From Ectocarpus siliculosus (Eukaryota > Sar > Phaeophyceae > Ectocarpales > Ectocarpaceae): a stretch of 64,000 bases of DNA. The notes beneath the pieces are model-generated. The model was not told where the DNA came from. It searched no databases and worked only from the letters and a program-made list of their open reading frames with translations. The stretch is from the NCBI GenBank assembly GCA_000310025.1, contig FN649734.1:3317-67316 (forward strand), written 5' to 3'. Both the position numbers and the translations under genes were made by a program. The first letter of the stretch is position 1; the number at the start of each line of letters is the position of its first letter. Shown piece after piece: positions 31,437 through 63,675 of the stretch.

Positions 31437-32240
31437 CTATACTGTCTTCATCGTTCGCGAAGGTATACACGGCTTGTCCAAACCTTCCAAGGTGATTCGA
31501 TCATCGCCCGAGCCGTCCACGGTCATAGCCATTCCGCACTTTTCGAAAAGACGGTGTCGGTACGCTTGTTGGTTGTTGAGTCTTGCCATGGCCGCTCCCA
31601 TCCACTGAGTGATCAAGACCCGCCTATCAGAAGCTGTCAACGACGCGGTTTCCCACCTCTCGAGGTTGTCCGACTGCTCGATCCATATGTCCATCTGCCT
31701 CCCGACTTCCACCTTGCGAAATCGTCCGGCTCCTGCATCAACTGGCTGCACCTCATCCGTACACTCCGCAGGGCCATACCAGGCGAGAGTGTTGCAGTGC
31801 TTCGCAAGATACTCCTTGCATCCGTCCGTCATCTGCGCGTGCAAGTTGTCCATGATAAGAATGGACCTCGCCTTGGGGAGCTCACCCCGCCCGCGCATCA
31901 GGCCTTCGCGGTAGGACCTCTTCGCCCACTCCATGCATGCAGAGCTTTTGGTCGGCCCACGCATTCTCCTGGAAAAAACACGTCTACGTCCTCGTGATAC
32001 GCTGCCTTCTCCACCGGCGAGATCCGCTTTCCCGTGCCTCGGAAAATCACTGAAATGTGCATGATGGTCTTCTCACCCGGACCAAAGATGACTTGCATCG
32101 TGCACTGCCTTTTCTCTAGGCCAGCAAAGGGCTGCGAGATTGCTACCCGCAACGCACCTCTCTTGTCCCACGTGTCGAGCAGCCGTTCACAAGTTTGCCA
32201 AGCTCTTTCAATAGTCCATGGGGCAAGGGATTGGAGAGGG
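31437..32240 (-). pseudogene. DDE_1-type (pogo/Tigger-like) transposase relic
   Basis: Read on the minus strand, 32240 to 31437 gives a catalytic-domain fragment: MQVIFGPGEKTIMHISVIF and HEDVDVFF, then after frame changes WAKRSYREG, ILIMDNLHAQ (second Asp), TLAWYGPAECTDEVQPVD (third acidic site) and a tail to a stop. Continuity is broken near 31975 by one extra T in the run before ccaggag, and near 31940 by a 4-base duplication in tgcatgcatgg. The upstream DNA-binding part is not recognisable. A spliced explanation is less likely because no donor fits. It is a dead remnant of a cut-and-paste transposon. Confidence 0.7.
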
Positions 32241-33533: not shown

Positions 33534-34485
33534 GTACGACTGGGGGGCAGACGAAGAGAAACACGAGAACTGCCAGTACAGCAGCTATATACATAGACTA
33601 CTGGATGGAGACACCAGACACGGGTGTCGACTTGGCGGAATCGAAATGGGTGAGTTCACGACTCGAACTCATCAGGGTAGGACCGTGCGGGAGAGATATC
33701 ACACGGTAGTACAGCTCGGCGCAACAGGTATGGTATGTAGAATTGAATACCTTGGCCCGTTCGTTGTTTCTCGCTTCAACGAGGCATGTGAGAAGTCCAG
33801 TCATTCGGTTCAACCGAGGCATTTGACCGATAGCATTATTTTTCTCGGTTCAAGTCCCTGACCACGGATGGAAGGATCCAACCATGCGTGCCCAGCCCTC
33901 TCGCACCCCCTTGCCCACCTGCTCACAACTTTCACAGCCAGTGGACCATATCGTCAATCGGCACCGAAATCGACTTGTCAACGGAAAAAAAAAAAAGGTG
34001 AGGCTGGTGGTGCAAGAATACAGAATAATAAAGGAGCAACTTACATAAAGTATGCATACATACATTGAAATGATCGAATGGGCTCCATCTTGTGCCTACT
34101 ATACTGCTGGAAGTGTGAGGTTGACTTCAAGCAAGTATATTCTATGTGGATGGATAACTCCACGCTGACTCTCCCACAATCTTGCCGAACGGCTGCTAAG
34201 GGGAGAGCGTCTTGTAGCGAGAACGAACTACAGCATACATTGTGCGTACGTCCAATCCTTCTGGTGTTGTTCCGCCGAAGTATATACAAACCAACATGTC
34301 ATGGATCTACTGACCTTGTTACACACCCCGCGTCTACGTCTTTACGGGATGCCCCACAAGCCATTGCCAGGGTGAAACCCGGGTGACGAAGAAATCATCC
34401 GCTCGCACACGATAAAACGAGTTGATATGTCGCTTCCCGACCGCCCCGCGTTTCCCTCGAACTAAATTGCCGGTTTCAAAGAATC
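33534..34485. other. Upstream region of the cysteine-module gene
   Basis: No coding family was recognised. The region between the degenerate module and the signal-peptide exon should contain the promoter of the gene starting at 34486, but no core element could be assigned. Confidence 0.35.
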
Positions 34486-37400
34486 ATGATGCACATTTTC
34501 TCATCTTCGTGGGGAAAGCTCCTCGTGATGGCTATGCTCGTCACTTCCGTGGCAGGTGGTGAGTGAGAGAGGTTGCGGGAGGCTTTCGTATACAGCTGTT
34601 CTCCATGCCACGCCCTGTAGGACAAGAAGATGCAGGCCTCGCCTACATGTGTACATGTATACATCAAGACATTAGGTTCTGTGGATTTTCCCCGTCCAGG
34701 TTTCCCATTGACGTAGAATATCCCCATGATTTTCTCACGGAGGCCGCGCAGGTTCCCAGGGTTTGGCGGCCCTTTTCTGCCCTGTCCCGACCTGAATCAA
34801 CGAAGCTGCCGACCGCCGATTGGTCTTTGTCGTGACCATTCATGGGGCCGCTAGCCGCCATACTTTCGTTTGGCTCCAGCCTCAAACTCATCAGCCTCGC
34901 ACTGTGATTGAGTGGCCTCGATGGTGCGTGTTGGCAATGCGCCGGACGACCACCACCAGTCATTCACAAGACAGCAATTCTGACAACGTTAAGGATTCCG
35001 GTTCTCGTTCTTGGTTTATCGGCCATCGGTTTGCAGGCGTGACGTACCCATTTGCTTCCCGATTTCGATCAACATGCCGTCCAGAGATGCTCTCTCGTAG
35101 ACCCTCCCTTCCCGCGCTCTAAGAGCCCAGACCACAACCAGTCGTGTCGAGGTGAGTTTCGTTGCGCCACGTGGGTGTCATGCCATGCAGGTTAACAGTT
35201 TTGAAGTTGAAAGTGACGTGCGGTTGAGTATCTTACACAAGGAAGTAACGCTTTCTTGCCCATAACAGCATGAACGCCAACGTCAGCCGTAAATTGACAG
35301 CTACTCATGGCACTTCCATTCTCGTCGTGCCTCCAGGTAAGTCGTCCTGGTCGAGGAAACCGACACCGTCCCAGGCCACGTGCGCCCCCTACCACCCGGG
35401 CATCCAAGGAAACATCGGCCAGGGCCGCCCAGGCATCGTCTGTTGCCCGGCGAGGCTTGGTCCTGATTTTTGTGTTGTGTGGTGTCTAGCTACAGACCAA
35501 GAGTGACTCATTGGCAAACTTCGTAGCTCATTAGAGCCTGCTAAACTCCGCTACCTCTTTACTCTCACCACATTTCCCCTTCTCCTGGTGCTCCTCTACT
35601 GACAGCTGGAATGCAGGCAGTGCGGTGGCGTGGGATGCAGGAAAAAACAACCCTTCGGATTGAGCGGGGATGACTGCTGCGTCTCCGGCATTCTCCGAAA
35701 CCAGGGCTATTGCGCCGACCGTGGAGCTAGCGCCCCTTGCATCATCCAAGGACGCGGGGGTAAGACCGGGGGGGGCACAGAGTAACGGCTCGAATGACGA
35801 GACGGCCTCTATGGTTGGTGTGCGACTTAGGAGTGCGAGAACACGGGTGAATGCTGATGGGGGGGCTTAGGTCACCCCCCGACTGTCCTACCAAAGCATT
35901 TCACCTGTTTTCGCTAAATGGTTTGGGATTGGAAATGGCGGCAGCTCCGTTGTACCTGAAGCCTTTGGGGGTCCGAGCAGAGGGGCTGACAGTCACAGGG
36001 CGCTTCATCTTCGTAGAAGCTCATGTCCGGTAGACCGCTCGAGTACGTACTGTGGAACTGAACCGCTTGTAGTAGACCGGTCGCGTGTGAGGAGGAAGAA
36101 CATGTGTGTATTGGTACGTATCGTCTAGGCGTTTGGCACGGATGGTGCGGGGTGATTTTACTCCTTTCAAATCACCGAAGGCGCTGCTCGCTGTCGATGC
36201 GCTCGCTTGGCTTCAACTCCCGAAACCTTCGCACTGTGACTAACGGCTCTGACGGGTGTTGGCAGTATGTGGTGGGGCACCAATGATTCACGAGCCAGTA
36301 AGGGTACACAGCGGTAGAAAAAATATTTGGCTAATCAGTTAGTCTTCCTACAGGCGTGCTCGGCCCTCTGATTTCCCCCCTTCGATGGATGTTCCTTCCC
36401 AAGGTAGACTCTCATACACCCTCGCGTTCAGTAATGGAATATGAGACCCACGCACTTCCCGAGTCGAAGTTTTAACGTTGCGTGCCAGCTAGCTAACCCA
36501 ACGTGACGTGCAGCTGCACGTCGTTGCATAGAGACGAATGTTTTCCGGCGACCGCAATGACGTCCACGTCAACCGCTTATTCACAACTCGCACATTTTTA
36601 TCTCCAGGTACGTCTTCTTCCCGGCAGAAGGAACCGTCACCGGCCCGGAAGCCACGCAAGTCTTCCCGGCAAACGAAATCGGCCCGGAAGCGGCACAAGC
36701 CTTCCCGGCAGAAGGAACCGACACTGTCCCAGGCCACGTGCGCCCCCTACCACCCGGGCATCCAAGGAAACATCGGCCAGGGCCGCCCAGGCATCGTCTG
36801 TTGCCCGGTGAGGCTTGGTCCTGATTATTGTGTTGTGTGGTGTCTAGCTATAGACCAAGAGTGACTCATTGGCAAACTCCGTGGCTCATTAGAGCCTGCT
36901 AAACTCCGCTACCTCTTTACTCTCACCACATTTCCCCTTCTCCTGGTGCTCCTCTACTGACAGCTGGAATGCAGGCAGTGCGGTGGCGTGGGATGCAGGA
37001 AAAAACAACCCTTCGGATTGAGCGGGGATGACTGCTGCGTCTCCGGCATTCTCCGAAACCAGGGCTATTGCGCCGACCGTGGAGCTAGCGCCCCTTGCAT
37101 CATCCAAGGACGCGGGGGTAAGACCGGGGGGGGGCACAGAGTAACGGCTCGAATGACGAGACGGCCTCTATGGTTGGTGTGCGACTTAGGAGTGCGAGAA
37201 CACGGGTGAATGCTGATGGGGGGGCTTAGGTCACCCCCCGACTGTCCTACCAAAGCATTTCACCTGTTTTCGCTAAATGGTTTGGGATTAGAAATGGCGG
37301 CAGCTCCGTTGTACCTGAAGCCTTTGGGGGTCCGAGCAGAGGGGCTGACAGTCACAGGGCGCTTCATCTTCGTAGAAGCTCATGTCCGGTAGACCGCTCG

Positions 37401-40400
37401 AGTACGTACTGTGGAACTGAACCGCTTGTAGTAGACCGGTCGCGTGTGAGGAGGAAGAACATGTGTGTATTGGTACGTATCGTCCAGGCGTTTGGCACGG
37501 ATGGTGCGGGGTGATTTTACTCCTTTCAAATCACCAAAGGCGCTGCTCGCTGTCGATGCGCTCGCTTGGCTTCAACTCCCGAAACCTTCGCACTGTGACT
37601 AACGGCTCTGACGGGTGTTGGCAGTATGTGGTGGGGCACCAATGATTCACGAGCCAGTAAGGGTACACAGCGGTAGAAAAAATATTTCTCGTCCATGGCT
37701 AATAAGAGAGTCTTCCTACAGGCGTGCTCGGCCCTCTGATTTCCCCCCTTCGATGGATGCTCCTTCCCAAGGTAGACTCTCAGACATACACCCTCGCTTT
37801 CAGTAATGGAATATGGGACCCACGCACTTCCCGAATCGAAGTTTTAACGTTGCGTGCCAGCTAGACTTGGAGTTTGAAAGTGACGTGTAGCTGCGCCTCG
37901 TTGTAGCGACAAACGTTTTCCCACAACCGCAATGACGTCAACGTCAACCGACATTCACAACTACGCACAATGTTTACCTCTAGGTACGTCTTCGCGGCAG
38001 AAGGAACCGTCACCGGCCCGGAAGCCGGGCGAGGCTTCCCCACCGATGAAGCCGACACCACCCGAAGCGACGTGCGCCCCCTACCACCCAGGCATTCAAG
38101 GAAACGTCGGCCAGAACAGCAATGGCAACGTCTGTTGCCCGGTGAGGCTAGCCCCTTATCTGAGTATTGCACGATGCCAACTTGCAGGCCACAAGTGACT
38201 GGCCAAGGCAGTCTATATCGCGAACTCGGTCGTTCATTTGCGTGATAAACTCGTGGATCGTTTGGAAATCTTCGTTGCTGTCGACACCTCTAGCCCACGC
38301 CACCGTTCCCATTCTCGATACGCGTTTCTGCGAACAGCTCGCATGCGGTACGTGTGGTGGACCAGAATGTGCCTCGAAGAAGCGTCGCGGACTTGACTGT
38401 TGTGTCGATGACATCATCCGAACGTGCAACCCTTGCTCTAGACCTGGCGCCAAGGCCCCGTGCATCATCGACGGTGAGTCCTTCCGACACGAGCTAACAC
38501 TAACGAGAAACGACTCAAGCATGGCATGCCGACTACCATAGACACGCGTTGCATTCCACGGAATATGAGTGGTGGCTTGGAAAGAAATTCCACCACTAGC
38601 GAGTCTCGTCTCGATGTTTGTAAGTATCTTGTGCATTTTTGGAACTGTTTTCTGTCCGAGTTGTCAGCGTTGCTCGTTGCTCTCGTACACCTTGACGGCT
38701 TCGTTAGATGATCCTAACAGTCTCCTAAAAGGCACTGACCACGTATCCTGCTCCCGAGGTACCTCAGGCTGGGCTGTGATGCATCCGAGAGAACGCCGTC
38801 GAGTTTGCGGTAGAATCAATGCAAACCAGACGCCGCAATAGGCCACCCGCGTGGTGATGGTTCTCTGCCTGGGCTCTCCCTTCGAGTTTTTGTTTCTATT
38901 CTTTCTTATCTCAGCACGCGTGCAACATATCTGTTGTTCCTATTGAGGCGCAATCCTCCACCGTCATGACATCTTTACTCATGAAGTTGTGCACCAACTA
39001 TTGTTCCGAAACTGCACAAACGTCACCTGCTACATGCTTGACGTGGTGACCACTCCCCTTTGAGACCCCTTCAACAACAATCCATCGTGTACGTCCCGGT
39101 CTATTCCACGCAGCGAAGACGGGGCCGACTCCCGCATCGACTACGGCGCCAACTATTGCCCCGACCCCAGCACCGACACCTGCGCCCACTCCTCTTGCAC
39201 CGACGCCAACCCCAACACCTGCACCGACCCCTGCTCCAACGCCAGTACCGACACCAGCACCGACACCAGCACCGAAGCTCGCACCAACGCCGGCGCCAAC
39301 CACGGCGCCGACGCCTGCGCCGACGTATGCGCCAACTTTCGCACCGACGCCTGCACCGACGCTTGCGCCGACCCCTGCACCGACGCCTGCGCCGACTTTG
39401 ACCCCGACGCCTGCCCCGACCCCTGCGCCCACTTTGGCACCGACGACTGCGCCGACTTTGGCACCGACGCCTACGCCGACAACTTTGGCACCGACGCCTG
39501 CACCGACTCCGGTCCCAACTCCCGCGCCAACCCTTGCGCCGACCCCAGCACCGACGCCAGCGCCAACTCCGGCGCCCACTCCCACACCCACTCTCGCGCC
39601 GACGCCTGCGCCAACGCCTGCAACGACCCCAGCACCGAAGCCTGCACCGACCCCAGCACCGACGCCTGCACCGACCCCAGCACCGACGCCTGCACCGACC
39701 CCAGCACCGACGCCTGCGCCGACGCTCGCACCGACGCCTGCGCCAACTCCGGCGCCCACTCTTGCGCCTACTCTTGCGCCGACGCCTGCACCGACGCCTG
39801 CACCGACCCCAGCACCGACCCCAGCACCGACGCCTGCGCCGACTTTGGCACCGACGCCTGGACCGACTCCGTCCCCGACTCCCGTGCCGACCCTTGCGCC
39901 GACCCTTGCGCCGACCCCAGCACCGACGCCTGCGCCAATTCCGGCGCCCACTCCCGCGCCCACTCTTGCGCCGACGCCTGCGCCAACGCCTGCGCCGACG
40001 CCTGTGCCAACGCCAGTGCCAACGCCTGCAACAACGCTTGTACCGACCCCAGCACCGACGCCTGCACCGACGCCTGCGCCGACCCCAGCACCGACGCCTG
40101 CGCCCACTCTTGCGCCGACGCCTGCGCCAACGCCTGCGCCGACGCCTGCACCAACGCCTGCACCAACGCCTGCACCGACCCCAGCACCGACCCCAGCACC
40201 GACGCCTGCGCCGACTTTGGCACCGACGCCTGGACCGACTCCGTCCCCGACTCCCGTGCCGACCCTTGCGCCGACCCTTGCACCGACCCCAGTACCGACG
40301 CCTGCGCCAACGCCTGCGCCAACTCCTGCGCCAACGCCTGCACCAACGCCTACACCAACGCCTGCACCGACCCCAGCACCGACCCTAGCACCGACGCCTG

Positions 40401-43379
40401 CGTCGATTTTGGCACCGACGCCTGGACCGACTCCGTCCCCGACTCCCGTGCCGACCCTAGCGCCGACCCTTGCACCGACCCCAGCACCGAACCCAGCGCC
40501 AACTCCGGCGCGCACTCCCGCGCCCACTCTTGCGCCGACGCTTGTGCCAACGCCTGTGCCAACGCCAGCACCGTCCCCAGCACCGACCCCAGCACCGACC
40601 CCAGCACCGACGCCTGCGCCGACTCCGTCCCCGACTCCCGTGCCGACCCTTGCGCCGACCCTTGCGCCGACCCCAGCACCGACGCCTGCGCCAACTCCGA
40701 CGCCCACTCCCGCGCCCACTCTTGCGCTGACGCCTGTGCCAACGCCTGTGCCAACGCCTGCACCAACGCTTGCACCGACCCCAGCACGGACGCCTGCGCC
40801 GACGCTCGCACCGACGCCTGCGCCAACTCCCGCGCCCACTCCCGCGCNNNNNNNNNNNNNNNNNNNNNNNNNNNNNNNNNNNNNNNNNNNNNNNNNNNNN
40901 NNNNNNNNNNNNNNNNNNNNNNNNNNNNNNNNNNNNNNNNNNNNNNNCGTGCACCAACACCTGCACCAACACGCGCACCGACCCCAGCACCGACCACAGC
41001 ACCGACGCCTGCGCCGACGCCTGCGCCGACAATGGCCCCGACACCTGCGCCGACATTGGCACCGACCCCTGCACCGACCTCTGCACCGACGCTTGCACCG
41101 ACGCCTGCGCCGACTCCGGCGCCCACTCCCGCGCCCACTCTTGCGCAGACTTCTGCGCCAACGCCTGCGCCGACTCCCGCCCCGACCCTTGCACCGACCC
41201 CAGCGCCGACGCCTGCGCCGACAACTTTGGCACCGACGCCTGCACCGCCTCCGGCCCCAACTCCCGCGCCGACCCTTGCGCCGACCCCAGCCCCAACGTC
41301 TGCTCCGACACCAGCACCGACACCAGTACCGACGCCTGCCTCAACTCTAACGCCGACTCCCGCGCCGACGCCTGCGCCGACCCCTGCTCCGACACCAGCA
41401 CCGACACCAGCACCGGCGCCTGCACCCACGCCTGCGCCCACGCCTGCGCCGACTCCCAATACAGACCATGATACCTGCGATATCTACACCGACATCCAGG
41501 GGCTGGTCGGAATGAACCACAATGGCATCGTCTGCTGTCCGGTGAGCATCCTTATCAAATGGTTTTCAAATGAGTCGCCAACTGTCATACGCCACTCGCT
41601 ACCTGACAAGTATCAGAGTCCCATCACACTACAGTGTACGTCACCGTATCAGTCGTGATCGTGGCCGCCTTTCGTCTTGTCATTCATTCCCGTCGAGACC
41701 AAGCGACCTCCCGTCTACACCCCCCCGTTCTCAATACTCATCTACACCAACAGCTCGCATGCGGGACGTGCGGTGGCCCAGAATGTGCCTCGAAGAAGCG
41801 TGGTGGACTCGACTGTTGCATCGATGACATCATCCGAACGTGCAACCCGTGCTCTACACCTGGCGCTCAAGCCCCGTGCGTCATCGACGGTGAGTTCTTC
41901 CACCGCTAACATACACCACCGAACAACAAAGGGCAATGATTGCAAACCCCATAGACATGCAATGAGGCTCAACCCATGTGATTCCTGGCTTGGAGAGGAT
42001 TCCCAATACACACGGATCTCCCGTTCCGATGGTTGCACATCGCTGTGTATTTTTTGGATCTATTTTCGTAGGTCTAACAACCTCCTAAAGTCAACAACCA
42101 CGCATCCTCCTCCCGAGGGTCCTTAGCCTGAGTTGTGATGATTGCCAGGGAACTCCGTCCGGGTTGCGTCGGCACAAACGAGATGCCACACGCAGGGTGA
42201 TTTCGGCTCTTCGTAGCTTGCGCGGCGACAGCTTGATTTCTACTCTCGATGTCTCTCTCCACGTTTACCGTATCTGCTACTCTTCTCGTGAACATGTACG
42301 TATTCCCCCGGTTCATTTCTCTTGTTCTCCCCGATGTATGACCAAACACCTCCTGTGCCGTGATGATCGTCCAACACACTCTCCTGACGGACCCCTCCGA
42401 CACGCGCTAATCGTGTACGACCCGGTCTACTCGATGCAGCGGAGACGCACTCAACGCCGAAGCCTACGCCAAAGCCGATGGCGACGCCAAAGCCGATGGC
42501 GAAGCCACTGCCGAAGCCGGTTCCGAAGCCAATGCCGAAGCCAATGCCGAAGCCAATGCCGAAGCCCATCGGTGAGTCAGGTCCATGCGTGAGACAGGAG
42601 AGAGAAAAGCGCGTTGTCTTGCCCTTTCATTTCCCTTGATCGATGTTCCTTCTCGAGGTCCTCTCTCACACACTCTCCCGCACCGTGCTCTATGAGATCC
42701 ACACCTGTTGTACCGTTCGATCCGGGTCGAAATATCGTAGAGTAGCGTGCCAGGTGTGCGGATTCGAAAGTGATGTGCAGCTGCGTGTCTTTGTCTAGCG
42801 ACGAACGTTTGCCCACGACCGCATGAACGTCAACAGAATACCCACTACACCGCTTGCGTACCACCTATCTCCAGGCACGCCTTCCCGGCCAAAGAAGCCG
42901 ACACCGCCCCAAGCCACGTGCTCTCCTTACTACCCGGGCATCCAAGGAAACATCGGCAAGGGTCGCCCAGGCATCGTTTGTTGCCCGGTGAGGCTTGCTC
43001 TGGATTTGGATTGTTGCGTTGCGTGACGTCTATTTAGTTGCAGATCAATGGTGACTAATGGCAAACTCCGTAGCTCATTGTTGCATGCCGAATTGGTGGA
43101 CCTGCTGCAGTAAGGGCTTCTTTACATGTGATGCTTCTTTGCATGTGATACCTCTTTCCCCCCACCACATGCCTCCTGCTCCGGGTGCTCCTCCACCGTC
43201 AGCTGGAGTGCCGACAGTGTGGTGGCACGGGATGCGCGAGGAACCAACCCTTCGGATTGAGTGGAGATGACTGCTGCGTCTCCGGCATCATCCGAAGCCA
43301 GTGGGATTGCTCCGACCCTGGGGCTAAGGCCCCGTGTGTTGTTCGAGGAAAGAGCGCTATGCGTGGGTCGCACATGTAG
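34486..43379 (+). CDS. Secreted modular protein with five CCP/CGGxxC cysteine modules and Pro-Thr linker
   Basis: Exons: 34486-34558 (signal peptide, hydrophobic [13 protein letters not shown]), 35337-35449, 35606-35759, 36608-36807, 36964-37117, 37984-38141, 38338-38473, 39114-41541 (contains the gap), 41754-41889, 42440-42571, 42875-42987 and 43203-43379 (TAG). Every junction agrees: first-half exons run phase 1 to 0 and second-half exons 0 to 1. Each module reads linker, C(A/S)PY.PGIQGN, GIVCCP, then L.C..CGG..C, (D)DCC, C and APC, giving 10-11 cysteines. Linkers are Lys/Pro-rich, one is a KPMP repeat (42440-42571), and one is a Pro-Thr-Ala repeat of about 770 codons. The architecture suggests an extracellular matrix or wall protein with disulfide modules on extended, probably glycosylated spacers; that role is inference. 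The domain is not one I can name. The first module's intron has a GC donor. Confidence 0.7.
35358..38000 (+). repeat. Tandem duplication, 1.36 kb units carrying one cysteine module each
   Basis: Unit 1 (about 35358-36715) and unit 2 (about 36716-37990) match at an offset of 1358-1359 bases with only about ten differences over the best 1.1 kb, including introns. Beyond about 36480 and 37850 the similarity falls, and the following module (37984-38473) is an older, diverged copy. This shows recent expansion of the module array. Confidence 0.9.
39120..41460 (+). repeat. Pro-Thr-Ala coding minisatellite with higher-order repeats
   Basis: Built from 12-base variants of ccgacgcctgcg encoding PTPA, PTLA and similar. 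Longer blocks recur, for example tttggcaccgacgcctggac followed by a run of Pro codons near 39842, 40212 and 40408. The reverse strand shows long Val-Gly-Ala open frames that are only mirror images. The 100-N gap lies inside, so true length and frame continuity are unknown. Confidence 0.9.
40848..40947. other. Assembly gap (100 N) within the Pro-Thr repeat
   Basis: Exactly 100 N, probably a placeholder. The Pro-Thr frame differs by one on either side, which is explained by the arbitrary gap length. Confidence 0.99.
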
Positions 43380-54700: not shown

Positions 54701-57700
54701 TAATAAGGGGTGTACCGTTGGAAACTGCTCGTGAGCACCAAAAGCAAGTGCATGAGGTATCGATAACGCAGTCAGGTTGTTTACCTTGGGACCGAACTTT
54801 TTTCTCTCCAGCATTAGGGCGTGGAAGTGGCACAGTCCGAACAAAATTCCTTGCGTCCTATTGGGAAGATCAACCACATGCGCATAGCAGTGGTCACAAC
54901 ATGGGTTAAGGCCGAAACGACGGGCACACCCACAAGCAAGAAAGATTGAACGATTGAATGAAGTGTAGCGCCTTTCAGCATCACTAGAACGCGCGACGGC
55001 AACGAACAAGAGATAACTTCAATCTTCGTCGCACATGCAACTTTCGCGGAGTTATCTCTCTTGTCCCAAAGCCGCAAACCACTAAACTGTGCGGAATAAA
55101 AGTGTTCCAACTTTCGACTCAGATTTCAGGTCAGTCAAGTCGACCTGCTGTTCTTGCCCCCAACGGGTCTCACAACAGCGCTCGACATAGAAAGTCCGAG
55201 CAGGGAAGTCATGTTTACCTTGGTTCTAGGTCACTGTAGTCCTCCCTGGAGATAGATGCGAATGCCTGCTTGAGGTTTGCTCGCAGACCCGAGGGCGGGT
55301 CATTTGTCAGTTTGATGCACCTGGTGGCCAGAATATTCGTTGCGCCATCGAAAGAAGCGTAAGTTATGCCACGGGCGGAATAGCTCAAACCCCAGGTGGC
55401 CGGCTTATTGGTCCACAGCTCGAGAGGTGAAACTACCGCATGTTAAGAAAAACCTGCATTATTCTACAAGGGGTGGGAGGGTTCGTTACGTCTGGTAGAG
55501 TAGAACAGACATTACCGGTCAGTTCGCGAAGAGGAACAGTTTTTTTTGTAACAGAACAAGGACACATGCTTGATGCGACACTGACGCTCTTTTCTTGCAA
55601 AGTGCTCACCTTGGCTGTGCGGGGTTAGTGCCACAACTGAAACATACACTATAGTGGTTCCCGTCCTACACGTTATGTTGTTAGCACAAGCTCGTCAGTT
55701 GCTTTGGTTCCCGAAATGCGCTGTCCAATTCTCGTGGTAGAGGCAGATGTGTGAAAATGCATCTTACCTTTCGAGAATGCCGACAGGGATTGTTTCCGAC
55801 GGGTCCGAGGAAAGCATCACGCGGAACTTGGGGTTTGATCCTATCTCCTTGAAGTAGTCCAGTCTCTTGCTCAGCGCCGGTAGCCACTTCGGCATCAAAT
55901 GGACGTTGTTCAGCACTACCCAATGTCCCTGTAAGGTTTGGTGAGAGGAAAGCGTCGCAAGTGCCGAACACTGTAGGTCAGAACCATGCGAGGTGACAAG
56001 TTACCCCGCCCGTTTGCACCCATATGCGTGTCATGGGCTATGCCGAAGTTGAGCAATGGCGCTTGAGCAGCAACTGTCCATGTCCTGTTCAGCGATCATT
56101 TTACGACATGAACAACCAGATAAGCAGGCGAATTCTCGAAGGGGGTTCTCGCTGGCCACTCACGGATCGAAACACGGCACTGGCACCGACAAAACACCCA
56201 CCCCATCAAGCCTGTGTGTTTACCCCTTCCCCTATCTCAATCGCAATATCTGACCCTGGGCGGAACACCCTCCCACCTGAGCGCTACCAACGTCTAGCCT
56301 GTCCATCGCCACCTCATCTTGTCCCTGGTGTCCATGTCATGTCGTATTACAAAAGCCACGCGCACAGGAACGTTGACGAAAAAAAGGCGACAAGAACCAA
56401 CAGTTTCGTCACAGCGGCCAAAACGTGGCAGTGAGCACAGGTGAAATAACGTGGGCGGAGGAAATCTTGTTTCGATAATGAAGCTGTGCCGCTGATATCT
56501 GCTGTCCCTTTCGACGTTCCAGGTGCAATTCGAAGCAACAGGAACTGCCCTGGGTAATCGCATGACTGCGGGGCTAACCCATTGACTGGAAGACGCAACC
56601 CTCGGGTGCATTTGTTTTCCAGTAGTTCGCCGTGCGCTTCCTGTGCAGCCGCGCTGTGCGAAGCAAGGAAGAAAATCGACTTGGTTTCTGTCGCTTTCGC
56701 ACCTGGCCTAACGAAATATCGTGGTAGTTAGTCCCCCTTTCCATGCCGTGCATGTCTGCAAGCTTGTCCACGTCGGCTGTGACATTTGCTCCGGCTGACA
56801 AGATGAAGTATATTGGGGTGGCTGGATCAGAGTCCTTGAAGGCCTCCGACAACACCTGGTTCGGCGAACCAACAGCATGAACATGGGAAAATTTCAGCCA
56901 CGCACCTACACGTCGTGAGAGTACAGCAGTTGCGCGTGCTTACGACAGCCGGGTTTTATCCTCCATTCCCATTTCCCCTTCTTCACCCTGTCCCTGCTAC
57001 AAAGAACTTCTCCCCTACGATATCTCCCATATTTTTACCACAAAAAAGGATTCCACCGCTTAAGTGGTTTCGCAGAACGATATGTATTTGCCAGAATGCG
57101 GTGCTCATGATAATGTCGGGAGTACATGTGTCACATTGGTCCATGGTAGGGTGAAAGAAGATGTTTCGTCGAACTCGTGCGACGCCAGAGAAGTATTCGA
57201 GAAGCATTTGCTTGCGGCGTTTTTTTCATAAGTCCCAAATGTTTCGCGAAACGACGGCTGGAGACCGAGCAACCCCGGCCACAAACCCACGACACGGAAC
57301 GTGGTGAAAATCGTCACAAGAACCAATTCAGCAACCGATCGAAGCTCCACGGTGTACGACGTTCTAAGCAGGCACGACACTACCTCGGTGGCTCCCTAGA
57401 TGAAACGGATTATGTTGGCGGTCTAACATCTTCGATAGTCGTTTTCATACCATCCTACTTCGGAAGCTTTACTATTATCGTGTTCTTTGTTATCGTTTCG
57501 TATAACAAGAATCCTGTGGTGATTTCTAACGGAGGCTACATAGGTGTCCAAGAACTGGCGTGGGAGGAACACACTGTAGCGACCACTGGCGACCATGTGA
57601 TAGCTCCTCGCACCTGGAAGCTGTTCAGCTTGGCATCGATGTCAGCGAACGCCGGGCCGTCGGGCAAGTTTGTTCTCACAAAGGTTGCTATCGCCTGCTC

Positions 57701-60700
57701 GACGGAAGCGCGACCCGATGGGACACGATGGGGCACAATCGATAGGGCGGGTTAGTGCGAGTGCGGGGGATGCGTACTCAGTGCCAGCACTTGGCCTCCA
57801 CGCAGCACGGAGGGTCGTCGGCGGTATCGACCGTGCTAGATCGAGGACACATGCACTTGTCGTTCTTACTATATCGCGATTTTCAGACTCTGCAAACGTT
57901 GGTGATGGTCTCCCAATAGTTGAAGCGAGCGTTCCGTGTCATTCGGGAAAAAATGGATTCCCACATGTCAACTACAGCGAACATCACTGCGGGTCCAACG
58001 ACATGGAAAATGCAAGAAGCGAGACTTGATGCACCCTGAAAATCGATTCCCAAAATTTCATGGCTTTCCTCTTCCCTCGCAGTCCAATCCAGCAAGAACC
58101 CACCGTACCTGGGTCATCCGGTCTGGTCGCAGGCACTTGACGACCAGTAACTTGAGGAACGGTCGCTTGTCGAGCTCTCGCCAATCCAGAGGAAGCTTTT
58201 CCACCTCGGGGGCAGCAGCATCAAACCACTCGCGAAACCGCGGCGCCGATTCAGCCACGTCATTGGCGAGCTTAGCAAACCTTTTGTTGTTTGGAGGCAA
58301 GGGGGGCGGGGGCATTGGGTTCAGGAGATCGATGTTGAGGTGGAATTCACGCCCGGGGGGATACACTTGCCATGCGCTAGAAGCACGCCCATTTGGCGAT
58401 CAACCGCCGCTTGAGCCGACTTACCCATCGAGCGAGCTCAGCTCCAGCACCATCCTCCACGCTGTTTCGGAGAGCCAGTCGGCCGGGGGTGGATCATCCC
58501 CCGCCCCACCGGCAGCGGCGGAACGTCCTCCCTTGAGCAGGAAATTCAGGGCCTCCGAGGAATACGCGGTGTCTCCCCCGAATGCTCCAAACTGATTGCG
58601 GAGGTTGCGGTTGTGGTAGAATGTGAGGGTGGCGGTAGGATTCACCCATGCGAAAGTGCCTCCATCCATCTAGGACATCAAGCGCCTAGCAACACATTCG
58701 GAACTGCCCTGTGGAGGATGCTGGAATATGACAGTTGTACAGCTTGCCAGGGCCTCCGTGAGGTAGATTTGGGATCTACTCCGAAACATTCGTAGAGGTG
58801 GGCTTGAGCTTTTTAAGGGTCGTTCCAACCGTCCACACTTGCCGAAAAAGGTTGCGACCTCTGGGTGTGGCAGTTCAGGTAACGGTCGACCCTCGCGTTC
58901 GTGATATATCGTCAGGCGTCCTTGGCGGCCTAAACATCATCGACGATGAATATGACGTAGCCCGCAGGTGGCTTGAGTAGAGGAGGTCAGCTGATACTCT
59001 GGAGCCTAGAAACGTCCAAACACGAAAAAAGACTGCACCTTCAACAGCCCGAAGGTGAGTTGTGTCAAGAAGATTAGCCGGTGCTTCTCGAACAGGCCCC
59101 TCGTTACCCACGTGTACACGGTGAATCGGAGGCTTCTCCTAAGGTTTTCCACGCGTTGCGGTTGGTCGTCAACCGCCGGCTTGCTCGAACTGATGGACTT
59201 GAAGAAAAACCTAGGCATTGTGTTGCACAAGGTGAACGTAGAGGGGTTGTCGATGAGATGAGAGTGAGGGGGGTATTGTCCTCGGCAGCTCACTGCACTA
59301 GAGCCGGCTGGCCCGTCGACAGTACGTGGTATCCCTAAATCCAGAGGGGTCCGTTCTGCTTATGCTCCGTTTGGAACGGCTGATAATGACCAGATTTCGG
59401 AGTGGTCTGAATACGCCTACCTACCGTGTTAGCGAGTCGAGGCTGTACTGGTACATGGAGTTGACGGTGCTGAGTTTGAGGAGCATGAAGTACATCAGGG
59501 AAGCCTCCGCGGCCACCGGTCGGTACACCTCTCGAGCCTGTGAGGAGTGGAATACAGGTGCGGGGGCTGTTTCGGCTTTTCGGGAGGCAAGGAGATCGAG
59601 CTCTGCGAAAAATGCTCGTCCCAATTAGACTGCGTTCTCTGTGTATAGGTTTAACTGGACCCCCCCTTTTTGTGCAAGCGGTTTTCGTCGGAAATTTCAA
59701 CCGGCCCGTAGGATATTGCATTAACGCTGCCCTCCAGTAGAGATGGCCCGGCACGCCGTTCTTCCTGCTTAACACAGTTTTGAATTTTCGATTGCTGTAT
59801 CGTGTTTGTCAGTCGGGTTGCCAACGGTTCGCACTTCGTTAATCCCAGCCTCGGTCTCCTTTCCTAGCACAACCGCCTCATTGATCTCTCGAGCGGTCTC
59901 CTTCATCTCCTCCAGTCCCTGATTTGTATCACACACGCCATGAAGGGTAGATGGATCGCGCGCGAACAGGATCAGTCGCCCTGCCATCAGAACAACTTCA
60001 CAGCCAGTAGCTTTCTCCGTGCCACACAGGTATATCCATTCACCATACATCGGCAGCTTTCCGTATTATCCGCAAATTCTCTTGCACAAGAACCAACTAT
60101 TAGTTCCAATGTGACCCGAACGTTTGACTGTGCTGGGGTCACTCAGTTTCGTTGATTGCTCGAAACAGCTCCGCGATCTCGGCAAACACCACTACCCCCC
60201 TCCACATACTAAACGAGGGTTACGTGACATACTGCGTTGGACCGGAGCCACCATGCTAGATTTTCACGCCTGTATTGAATTGGAAACCGATTCGTGGAGA
60301 TGCAAAGTTGGACAATCCCATGATGGGGCATGATAAACAATCAGACTTCGGGATCATTGAAACTTGTCGTAGGGATTACACGTTTCGTGGAGTCAAGCAT
60401 TCTCTATTGTGTCGTGCAGTTCAATTTTTCGAACATCGACAAGGGTGCCTGACAGGGATCACTTCGACCAATCCACTCAAGTATTTCGTTTCACCCGCGC
60501 GTTGAACAAGTGTTTTTTCAGCGCTTCGCGTGTCGCCAAAGTAAACCTCGGCACCGCGGCCAAGAACATATTCCACCCGTCTCCTAGGTGCTGCTACAAT
60601 AGGCTGGCGTTTGTATTTTGGCGTGAGTTGGCAGGGTCAACGAGCGCCTACCTCGATGAGAGCAACGTCGGCAAGAATATCAGCAGGAGCATCCGCTAGT

Positions 60701-63675
60701 CGCTGAAGCAGCTGGTCTTCAAGGCCTTGGAGCTGCATTTTGTAGCGGTTGGACGCCTGCAACGAAGCAACGAGGAGCGAGTGTATCGTCGACAAGCACA
60801 CGACTAAATATATAGGTAATTCGTACGGGCAACGCGTCATCGCTGTTGATCAGGTACCATTGAAGCGCTTATGTAGCGTGTGTGGCACGGCCAAAGTAGT
60901 GAAGGTGGTGTCCGCAGATAGTCGACATCGTGCACGCAGCTAGCTTTGCGAAACTTCTTCTTTCTTTAACCTGCGTTCCCGTCGTTCCGAGTGCCTCCCC
61001 TTTTGGTCTCGAACACCTTCCAAAAAGGTGTAAATCTAATCTACACCTCAGCGCCCAACGACGAGGCGCTCGCGTTCTCGCCAGATGGCTATTTCCGAGT
61101 ACATTCGGGCTGTTTCGCAGACCGTATGATACCTGCACGAGGTCGTTCTTGGTCTTTTCAAGTTCCGGTTGTTCTGCTCCAACGACCGACGCCAAAAGCT
61201 GATCCTCTAGTCCCCTGGAAAGATGGATTTTTTCCATAACAACGGTGTAAGAGGTGTTCGTTTTGAGGTCCTATGCTGAGCTCTTGGGTTGCGTCGAAGG
61301 CTTGTCCGCTTCTTGAGGAACACGCTAAAGGAGACTTGCGAAGAACGTGCAGTTTGTTTCGCGGTGCTGAGTCGGCCACGAGGAAATCAATGAGGATCAT
61401 CTCACAAACATTGTAACGAGCAAAACATTCATCTGGACCGACAGCTATATTCTTAAGTCTCCGCCTTCTCAAGGCCTCGTTTTCGAAGGACACGTAGCAA
61501 GCCATTCGTGAGGAGAACCCAAGTTTCTCCCTAGGGTCAGGGCTACCTTTCGGTCACGATGAAGTTGATGAGCGTGCAGGTTGCGAACACCTCCGGGCGG
61601 TAGTGAGGGTTCGAAAGTCGACTCTGTAGATAAAGCCTAAATGCCGGGTCGTACTCGCAATCCTCCCCGCCCATGCGCAGGAACAGGTTGCTCCCCTTCC
61701 GAATCACCGCCCTCTGCAGCACCGGGTTGAGCGCCGCGTCGATGTCTTGAGGGCAATTCTCCACGATGATTGTGTCGCCCTCCTGGATGGCCGCCACGAT
61801 TTTCTTCATCCAATTCGCCTGCGCTTTGATGTATTTTGGGTATGTTGTTTACGGTAGCGGCTGTTGTTCTCCACTGTATCTCGTCGTTGTTTGTCAGCAG
61901 CGCGGGCCTTGTAGTGTGTACAGCACTATACTACTGTGAAAATATTGTCGAAAGATGCTACAATGCACAACCTCCAAGACCACCATGGCTCTCTATTGTA
62001 TCGTGATTTTAGTCATTTCTGTGGAGACGCCGCGGTCTTCCTGAAGCTGCTATGCTGGTCCTACGACTTCCGTTCCGATGAACTGTAGCCTGCACAAAGG
62101 TATCCTTTCGCCTGTTTTATTGCTTCTGTACGGCAGATCGTACTTATCGCCCAATGCCAAGCATCGATACCTCAGAAGTACTAACATTTCCAGACTCACC
62201 GTAGTAGCTCTGGAACAACAAAGTTCAGGTAGGATTTCATATAAACAGGCTGTGCGGGTGCTTTCTTTTCAAATCTATACGGCATTACCACGTGCTTCAT
62301 ACGCAGACAGGCCTAAAGGTATTATGTTGACTCCGAAACCGTCGCAACGGCATACAGTAGGTTAAATACCGGGAGAATCCGGTGATCGTACAAGTATCGT
62401 GGTGGCTTTGGTGGTCGTACCTCGCCCATCTGGAGGACAACAAGTGATCGGCCGCTCGCCTCTGTGGCGACTTCCTCGTGACGACGCAGCCACCGGATGC
62501 CCTGAAGCTGCGGGTCGATCATGAGCGGCCATCGCTGGCACTAGAGATGGGGATAGTAAAACGGGTGGGCGAGGGAACCTCATGAAGCTACTTGTGCCTT
62601 ACAGGTATGTCACATGTCGGATCAACAGCAAACATTATGGAATGTCTTATTCTAGCGTCGTCATGTTGTTTCAGTTCCGACCTGAGTCAATATTCCTCCG
62701 TTCTCCACGCTGATTTGGTCCGACGGCAGTCGCTCGTTCTGCCATTCCGCCACTTGGCTGTCACTCGTCAGCATCTGCAGGGGTTCTAACCCCTCGCGAA
62801 GTGGTATCATCTTTGCTGTTAGGTCGGGTAGCCACCTGGGCATCACCGAGGACATGAACCATACAGCGTGCACGCCGGAAGCCGGACGTAAATTGTGGGC
62901 GGCGAGTCGAACCTCGCCCAGACAAAGTTGTCGGAAAAGGCGTGCTTGAACCGGTTTAACTTATTGATAGCGAGCGCGGAGGCATAAAAAAACATTTTCG
63001 CACTCTACTTCCAGGTCCATTATGGCCATCCATGCCAGTTCGAAGAGCATGGGGCATGGACTTCGCAATGTGTTAAAGGCAGAACTTGCGTTGCTAAAAC
63101 AACCGCAGTACCAGCAGCAACAGCCGCAGCAATGGCAATATCGATATCCACATCAGTATCTGCACACGGGGTATCGAACCTATTTCTCCACAGCTCTTGG
63201 CGGTAGTCCTTGCTGAATGCTCCCGCATAGCTAACGAAGGCCGCCGCGAGTAGCACGTCTCCCACGATGCTCGCTCCTCTATTGGACGCAAGGCAATGGC
63301 AGAGAGGGGCAATATTGGCGCGTTGGAAGTGGAACTCGGCGTGGAGTTGGCGATAGGCCTAGAACAAGCGGTGATGATTCCCCTTTGTGTCGGGTGGTGT
63401 TGGTGCTGGTGTTTCGTGCTTAAGGTCCAGGATCGTGAGGAGAATGCCTATCTACAGAACGCTACCCTGTGATCCACCTCCGCAATTAATTGCATTTTCA
63501 TAGTCAGTCAGATACGCGTGATCAACGGGCCAGACGACACCGCCAACAAACGACATTAGATCCAATAACCACGGAACGACCACCCGACCCGACGTGAACA
63601 GTTTCTAACCTCGTTCGCAGTCGCTCGACTTCTTCTCCCCAGCGTTTGTTCTCGCTGGCCAGCCCCTTTGTTAGC
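45734..63675 (-). CDS. Dynein heavy chain, C-terminal half (stalk end, AAA5, AAA6, C-terminal domain)
   Basis: Exons (high to low): 63610-63675, 63180-63278, 62682-62835, 62421-62540, 61547-61818, 61133-61214, 60652-60756, 59835-59918, 59425-59537, 59039-59210, 58425-58669, 58109-58376, 57614-57694, 56703-56855, [one not placed], 55768-55928, 55219-55320, 54785-54857, 54369-54458, 54036-54109, 53129-53285, 52608-52694, 51648-51770, 50772-50858, 50165-50236, 49646-49705, 48726-48797, 48105-48215, 47424-47489, 46976-47062, [one or two not placed], 45734-45857 with TGA. Phases agree at the resolved joins. Landmarks: end of stalk (GLASENKRW), AAA5 ([38 protein letters not shown]), AAA6 ([40 protein letters not shown]), C-terminal domain ([71 protein letters not shown]). 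The [13 protein letters not shown] form suggests an axonemal outer-arm alpha/beta-like chain; the subtype is inference. The 5' part lies beyond the right edge. Confidence 0.92.
48951..49430. mobile_element. MITE-like insertion in a dynein intron
   Basis: Inverted ends: caagggccctccat at 48952-48965, and its inverse within atggagggccccttg ending at 49428; the next block, aacacccct, is also shared in inverse. ACAGG lies directly outside on both sides (48946-48950 and 49431-49435), a candidate 5-bp target duplication. Length is about 480 bp with no coding capacity. It sits between the 48726-48797 and 49646-49705 exons. Internal sequence quality is doubtful. Confidence 0.5.
49195..49375. other. 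Homopolymer-rich, probably low-quality sequence
   Basis: Runs of T, G, A and C of five to twenty bases follow each other (for example ggggttttttt and a long C run). This is unlike the surrounding introns and resembles the decaying end of a sequencing read or a mis-assembled join. It lies inside the MITE-like insertion. Confidence 0.4.

Follow-up and report, generated by a model that had tools for sequence, protein, structure and literature searches.

A predicted chimeric arabinogalactan protein of Ectocarpus siliculosus and its family of cysteine modules

What kind of protein does a brown alga encode where a signal peptide, repeated cysteine modules and a long Pro-Thr region follow one another in a single locus? 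The locus lies at positions 34486-43379 of a 64,000-nucleotide stretch of Ectocarpus siliculosus DNA (contig FN649734.1, positions 3,317 to 67,316; hereafter the window). The complex multicellularity of brown algae arose apart from that of animals and plants and, to our knowledge, the proteins of their walls are poorly known. Our analysis indicates that the locus probably encodes a secreted modular glycoprotein of the wall or extracellular matrix, of the chimeric arabinogalactan protein (AGP) type, whose modules belong to a large family amplified as phase 1-1 exons. The plan of an AGP-like matrix protein is already known; what appears to be new is the folded part, a large cysteine-module family that is unnamed in the libraries searched.

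The gene and its Pro-Thr region

The locus looks like a real gene. It consists of 12 exons on the forward strand and its predicted product comprises a signal peptide, five cysteine modules of about 70 residues, Lys/Pro linkers and a long Ala-Pro-Thr-Pro region. Outside of a 100-N gap the intron phases are consistent across all 12 exons: exon 1 leads from phase 0 to 1, the module pairs run from 1 to 0 and from 0 to 1, and exon 10 is 1-1. Ten of the 11 introns have GT-AG splice sites and one, after exon 2, has GC-AG. Exon 1 (34486-34558) encodes the signal peptide and ends in a phase-1 donor. Its hydrophobic core, which was read without a dedicated predictor, reaches a hydropathy peak of 2.74; an in-frame stop lies upstream at 34423 and no in-frame ATG precedes the start. 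A signal exon with the same phase-1 donor and a similar hydrophobic core is kept at three other loci, on contigs C2, C345 and C240. Six pairs of module halves that are not identical were compared, giving nonsynonymous (dN) and synonymous (dS) divergences of 0.05-0.21 and 0.25-0.79, a ratio of 0.14-0.33; these are the six informative pairs, with two pairs involving module 3 of C2 and two of identical sequences left out. Because dN lies well under dS, chance is excluded as an explanation of the gene. Thus, the twelve-exon gene and the secreted-looking modular protein that a first-pass annotation had placed here are both borne out, by the agreeing phases, the conserved signal exon and the dN/dS ratios.

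The Pro-Thr region is what assigns the predicted product to a class. Before the gap it extends over 577 residues, of which 89.3% are Pro, Ala, Ser or Thr (PAST), and 239 of its 242 prolines stand in AP, TP, VP, SP or GP dipeptides. After the gap there are 175 residues (91.4% PAST), with 68 of 70 prolines in AGP-type dipeptides. Both sides together contain no SPPP and a single PP. The PAST content therefore exceeds on either side the 50% that defines a classical AGP, the glycomodules are Ala-Pro/Thr-Pro without Ser-Pro2-4, and the five cysteine modules supply the other motifs that, with a length above 90 residues, define a chimeric AGP. Since this composition agrees with the definition in the available part of PMC9223364, the region can be classed as an AGP-type backbone and, together with the cysteine modules, the product as a predicted chimeric AGP; the earlier description of the region as a spacer is replaced by this class. 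Chimeric AGP-like core proteins are described for brown algae in the available parts of PMC8307928 and PMC5100021.

The modules are arranged around this region as follows. Module 1 is divided between exon 2 (35337-35449), which holds a Lys/Pro linker and the first half with GIVCCP and carries the GC donor, and exon 3 (35606-35759), which holds the second half (DDCC...APCIIQG). Module 2 lies in exon 4 (36608-36807; a basic linker and the first half) and exon 5 (36964-37117; the second half, which has the same sequence as its counterpart in module 1). These two modules stem from a recent tandem duplication (1335 bp at 94.8%) that took in the introns, and as their module sequences are identical the gene has four different ones. 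A linker and the first half of module 3 follow in exon 6 (37984-38141), and exon 7 (38338-38473) provides its second half, of an 11-cysteine subtype with RTCNPC. In exon 8 (39114-41541) the Ala-Pro-Thr-Pro region is fused with the opening half of module 4, whose second half, again of the 11-cysteine subtype, is exon 9 (41754-41889). Exon 10 (42440-42571) is a Lys-Pro linker of phase 1-1, exon 11 (42875-42987) contains a linker and the first half of module 5, and exon 12 (43203-43379) contains its second half and the stop codon TAG. The proposal of five two-exon modules of net phase 1-1 is accordingly sound as to the phases, but the first half of module 4 ends the Pro-Thr exon, and module 5 closes the gene, which leaves its second exon without a 3' phase. 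The assembly gap of 100 N (40848-40947) interrupts exon 8; the frame is open on either side and is lost if the gap is read straight through. Since the placeholder does not keep the frame, the two sides were read apart, and the roughly 1289 residues of product are a readable length that does not fix the true one.

A partly collinear paralogue on C2 retains the signal exon and module 1, has a Lys/Pro linker joined to a module-3-type module, and includes a shorter Pro-Thr exon with its own stop. This last exon (L007:6922-7530) closes with a short acidic cysteine tail, ESIDCDCECECDDGYGCEA, before the stop. Among the examined loci only this paralogue also passed the Pro-Thr tract test; L005 contains a short stretch whose DNA resembles that tract.

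The cysteine module family and its neighbours

In an alignment of 34 copies (27 of 29 non-redundant sequences, three from later-examined loci and four window modules) the module has the consensus C-x(n)-CC-x3-C-x2(or 3)-C-x-G-x2-C-x(n)-CC-x(n)-C-x(n)-APC. Ten cysteines, one glycine and the proline of APC are invariant and the alanine of APC is nearly so. All 53 of the complete, distinct and N-free single-exon modules counted, out of 117 matches in the examined loci, contain exactly ten cysteines. Within the window gene, modules 1 and 5 also have ten, while modules 3 and 4 have 11, with the extra one in RTCNPC. These two modules are three residues shorter, having GLDCC versus GLSGDDCC in the others, and module 3 has GNVCCP in place of GIVCCP, so that, contrary to the earlier claim, the spacing is not strictly kept. 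The same extra cysteine is found in the second half of the C2 module that adjoins its Pro-Thr exon. We infer, short of proof, that the eleventh cysteine may form an inter-chain disulphide beside the rod.

The genome searched comprises 189 Mb in 492 contigs, with the window at C9:3317-67316. Three single-protein searches returned 122 matches at E up to 10, and 146 and 105 matches at E up to 0.01. Merged by hand at about E 0.001 or better, the three lists give at least 167 exon-level matches, which fall into 61 clusters; the third search contributed the places judged not yet listed. About 10 of the 167 matches span the first half of the module only (four on C9, for example) and about 157 span more. 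C47 and C358 carry near-equal copies and may be a single stretch assembled twice. Weaker matches were left out of the count, including C8:374721 and C7:425184, each of which has a match to the WSC domain on the same contig and strand. The module counts within loci exclude L021-L079 and L100, as well as L019, a duplicate of L080; the phase and cysteine counts rest on the first two locus sets examined and leave out the later one.

The majority of copies stand in tandem clusters. The largest has 24 matches (C4:5399568-5427136), and other arrays hold 12 exon-level matches at C207 and 7 at C345. The C4 array lies on one strand with a spacing of mostly about 1 kb, and a WSC match (C4:5398523-5398690) sits just past its 3' end; array and WSC are perhaps one giant modular gene. 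At L013, L018 and L080 (C358 and C8) some module copies are followed by an Asp-rich, not a Pro-rich, linker, so that the linker type differs by subfamily. A 1814-residue open frame at C8:1788433 was dropped, as it begins in a run of N. A subtelomeric placement, suspected because several clusters are near contig ends, was likewise dropped when the plant-type telomere repeat gave no match.

The exon borders located in the family are mostly of phase 1. The donor is of phase 1 in 72 of the 73 modules with a GTRAG donor, among 100 eligible modules that reach the C-terminal end, and the acceptor is of phase 1 in 45 of the 50 found among 68 eligible module starts; both sets are predicted from consensus sites. 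By its position, the lone other donor belongs to exon 12, the last of the window gene, whose stop codon overlaps the motif. When the modules are grouped by place, a phase-1 donor is present in 29 of 37 groups and a phase-0 donor in none. On this consensus-site prediction the exon units are bordered by phase-1 introns and fall into class 1-1. The division of the module over two exons, which the first-pass annotation took as the rule, applies to some subfamilies: the split falls just after CCP at C9, C2, C345, C240, C62 and C4:3131580-3141277, but other copies are split elsewhere and 55 of 115 matches in the examined loci are complete in one open frame.

Large tandem arrays of this kind, together with the recent duplication of modules 1 and 2, are what one would expect of a defence or recognition repertoire, in which the modules would be fast-evolving, secreted, lectin-like or microbe-binding units comparable to the shuffled leucine-rich repeat (LRR) and tetratricopeptide repeat exons of candidate receptors in brown algae; exon shuffling is reported for brown-algal ROCO genes in the available part of PMC11378527. 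We regard this explanation as unlikely. The six comparisons, made over whole module halves, point to purifying selection, and an AGP-type rod with basic linkers better suits a structural role.

The WSC domain (PF01822) has 102 matches in the genome. Same-strand WSC matches lie within 1, 3 and 6 kb of 5, 6 and 7 of the 61 module clusters, respectively. Within 6 kb there are 10 such matches where 0.23 would be expected, and the opposite strand has none. On C21, WSC and a module share one open frame (L094:572-1087; 28.0 bits versus a cut-off of 27.8), and a second C21 frame holding both (L102:1307-1672) scores 25.5 bits, under the cut-off. Further WSC frames adjoin modules at L104:1413-1895 (44.6 bits), L101:3219-3572 (34.8 bits) and L105:1080-1697 (26.4 bits, under the cut-off); a PF00537 match in L101:3219-3572 was under its cut-off and was disregarded. 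On C11, the CBM1 domain (PF00734) scores 38.1 bits against a cut-off of 20.6 in L101:408-1010, about 340 bp from a same-strand module match, and modules, WSC and CBM1 are aligned there in a row on one strand. These neighbours place the module beside different partner domains in what would be different genes. CBM1 was found at 23 places in all, for example C25:8506-8592, C15:2221900-2221986, C3:4764205-4764288 and C11:2179162-2179236, which differs from a 2012 survey that lists none for E. siliculosus in the available part of PMC3532174.

The EsV-1-7 domain (PF19114) has at least 150 places, from 880 candidates, in this genome, and its family is described as expanded in brown algae in the available part of PMC7457493. 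By eye, all of the 150 listed places are more than 6 kb away from any module cluster, which is a fair negative control for the WSC and CBM1 neighbours. The expansion also agrees with the earlier view that the locus belongs to a lineage other than animals, here the brown-algal stramenopiles. ROCO (PF16095), tried as a second lineage marker, was found at one place only and does not back the brown-algal assignment. As to other Pfam partners, 83 of 395 non-module frames near modules were scanned, and the matches to PF00745 (E 3e-05) and PF18463 (E 2e-04, under the cut-off) were taken as chance. Spread of the module by exon shuffling, as first suggested, is thus favoured by the phase-1 borders and by other extracellular domains nearby, but most copies are in tandem clusters and movement between genes rests on the few WSC and CBM1 neighbours.

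The same arrangement can be read as a mucin-like bioadhesive or a surface glycoprotein of gametes or spores, in which cysteine modules polymerise by disulphides around an O-glycosylated Pro-Thr rod. Cysteine modules do stand on both sides of the Pro/Thr/Ala region, and the two that adjoin the rod have an odd number of cysteines, compared to ten in the 53 complete modules elsewhere. Sequence cannot separate such an adhesive from a wall protein; the WSC and CBM1 neighbours of the family, however, suggest wall polysaccharide, and we consider the adhesive reading doubtful.

Searches for relatives of the module

The first-pass annotation had assigned the module to no named domain, and our searches agree with it. 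Nineteen modules scanned against Pfam at E up to 10, a range limited by the fact that HMMER discards most matches above about E 0.1, gave one match for one member (E 0.67). The same 19 gave no match in NCBIfam and one in PHROGs (E 0.78), and profile searches of PDB sequences gave one chitinase only (E 0.44 and 1), which was taken as chance. The spliced window protein has six Pfam matches, all under curated cut-offs, with a best E of 0.023. None of the WSC, CBM1 and EsV-1-7 models matched any of the 19 modules at E up to 10, and all three do score in this genome. A search of the literature recovered no paper that we recognised as describing this module. On these searches the family has no name in Pfam, NCBIfam, PHROGs or the PDB sequences.

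Viral and prokaryotic collections were searched as well. A degenerate DNA pattern picked out 59 viral stretches, in which a profile search found no full module; the best match, in L079, covers model positions 2-29 only (E 0.002) and was taken as chance. Single-protein scans found no relative among 23 viral and 171 GTDB pattern matches. A second pattern gave no viral stretch and one GTDB stretch, which overlaps a long bacterial open frame but is read in a different frame and is therefore chance. The viral and GTDB scans used exact short patterns that distant relatives would escape, and the collections searched contain no eukaryote proteomes. Similar segments, of the form CC-x3-C-x2-CGG-x-GC...CC...APC, may occur in other marine microalgae, in which case the domain would predate brown algae.

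The module might be a copy of some familiar domain, such as WSC, CBM1, the PSCD of diatoms or a further disulphide-rich fold, that has diverged beyond the reach of sequence search. This is improbable to us even though ten cysteines with vicinal pairs are frequent in small disulphide folds and the Cys-Gly-Gly motif is found in CBM1 and WSC too, given that the 19 modules drew a single weak Pfam match, that the WSC and CBM1 models detect other places in this same genome and that the PDB profile searches returned a chance chitinase.

Three other features of the window lie outside the gene. About 2.4 kb upstream of it, on the minus strand at 31440-32072, lies a weak match to a DDE_1 transposase (E 0.0038, under the cut-off), which may be what is left of a pogo-like element. 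The minus strand at 56577-63358 carries dynein heavy chain exons, with PF03028 at 56577-56939 just below its cut-off and PF12777 at 63023-63358 above it. The stretches at about 1-495 and 2150-2660 translate almost identically on either strand and are thus probably a recent local duplication.

A modular matrix protein in brown algae

The predicted protein resembles several known systems. Chimeric AGPs, as described in the available parts of PMC8307928, PMC5100021 and PMC9223364, share with it a signal peptide, a PAST-rich backbone (here 89-91%) of Ala-Pro/Thr-Pro without SPPP, and additional folded domains. They differ in that the folded part here is an unnamed cysteine module, some Ectocarpus AGP motifs being joined to mannuronan C5-epimerase (PMC5100021), and in that glycosylation is predicted here. 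Diatom pleuralins follow a similar stramenopile wall plan, with a Pro-rich region and repeated cysteine-rich domains (the 90-residue PSCD), but belong to a silica wall, and the PSCD is described in the available part of PMC4557024 as rich in Pro, Ser, Cys and Asp. Our module profile found no PSCD match among the PDB sequences, which should include a PSCD structure, though module and PSCD were not compared directly. WSC-domain wall proteins likewise have a cysteine-rich extracellular domain that is abundant in this genome and sometimes stands beside the module or in frame with it, and IMMEDIATE UPRIGHT and its EsV-1-7 relatives likewise form a cysteine-rich repeat family enlarged in brown algae, yet 0 of 19 modules match either model. 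The LRR exons of brown-algal ROCO genes, in the available part of PMC11378527, are amplified with one repeat per symmetric exon as here, but those exons are of phase 2 and their LRRs belong to ROCO GTPases, whereas ours are of phase 1 and encode secreted-looking cysteine modules. Finally, oomycete proteins of the CBEL type, in the available part of PMC3532174, are secreted stramenopile wall proteins with small cysteine modules and a Pro/Thr hinge; their modules are others (CBM1 and PAN), and the Pro-Thr region is much longer here.

In the wall, the protein may act as a multivalent cross-linker. Each module would be held together by five disulphides and would bind either polysaccharide of the wall or partner proteins, the Ala-Pro/Thr-Pro rod would be hydroxylated and O-glycosylated and serve as an extended, hydrated spacer, and the Lys/Pro linkers would attach to acidic polysaccharides. 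The extra cysteines of the two rod-flanking modules, 3 and 4, could provide inter-chain disulphides. As to the origin of the family, tandem duplication would have multiplied the module in the form of a phase 1-1 exon, and in rarer cases the module would have been joined to other extracellular domains.

Several observations weigh against a chimeric AGP of the wall and against the broader combination of the module with other domains. The assembly gap and the GC donor make the exon model imperfect. The C-terminal end, read by eye, is hydrophilic and does not resemble a glycosylphosphatidylinositol anchor signal, a feature that would be supporting and is not required. The only fold prediction, for one second-half exon of the window gene, reached a predicted local distance difference test score of 42 and was not used; its input aligned four of the five second-half exons, omitting that of module 2 as identical to that of module 1. 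As the C2 paralogue alone among the examined loci passed the test for another Pro-Thr tract, members of the module family do not typically carry AGP rods. With regard to WSC, 54 of the 61 clusters have no match within 6 kb and three of the seven that do sit within 50 kb on C21. A stop codon lies inside 5 of the 10 WSC matches (C26:6811574, C4:5320639, C21:2554040, C21:2590424 and C21:2544843), so some may be decayed or span an intron. At C21:2554040 the open frame free of stops reaches 25.5 bits, under the WSC cut-off, and at the C26 place the scan of one open frame gave no WSC.

With these points taken into account, a secreted, chimeric AGP-type glycoprotein of the wall or matrix is still the reading that we find probable for the gene. 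More tentatively, and as a possibility rather than an expectation, we suggest that brown algae independently built part of their matrix as animals did, from a ten-cysteine, phase 1-1 cassette present in more than 100 copies and combined with WSC, CBM1 and AGP-type rods, with an eleventh cysteine beside the rod making this gene's product a disulphide cross-linker of the wall. The window gene would then be a candidate chimeric AGP core for the brown-algal wall, and the module family may offer a countable test of a second origin of modular matrix evolution through exon shuffling.

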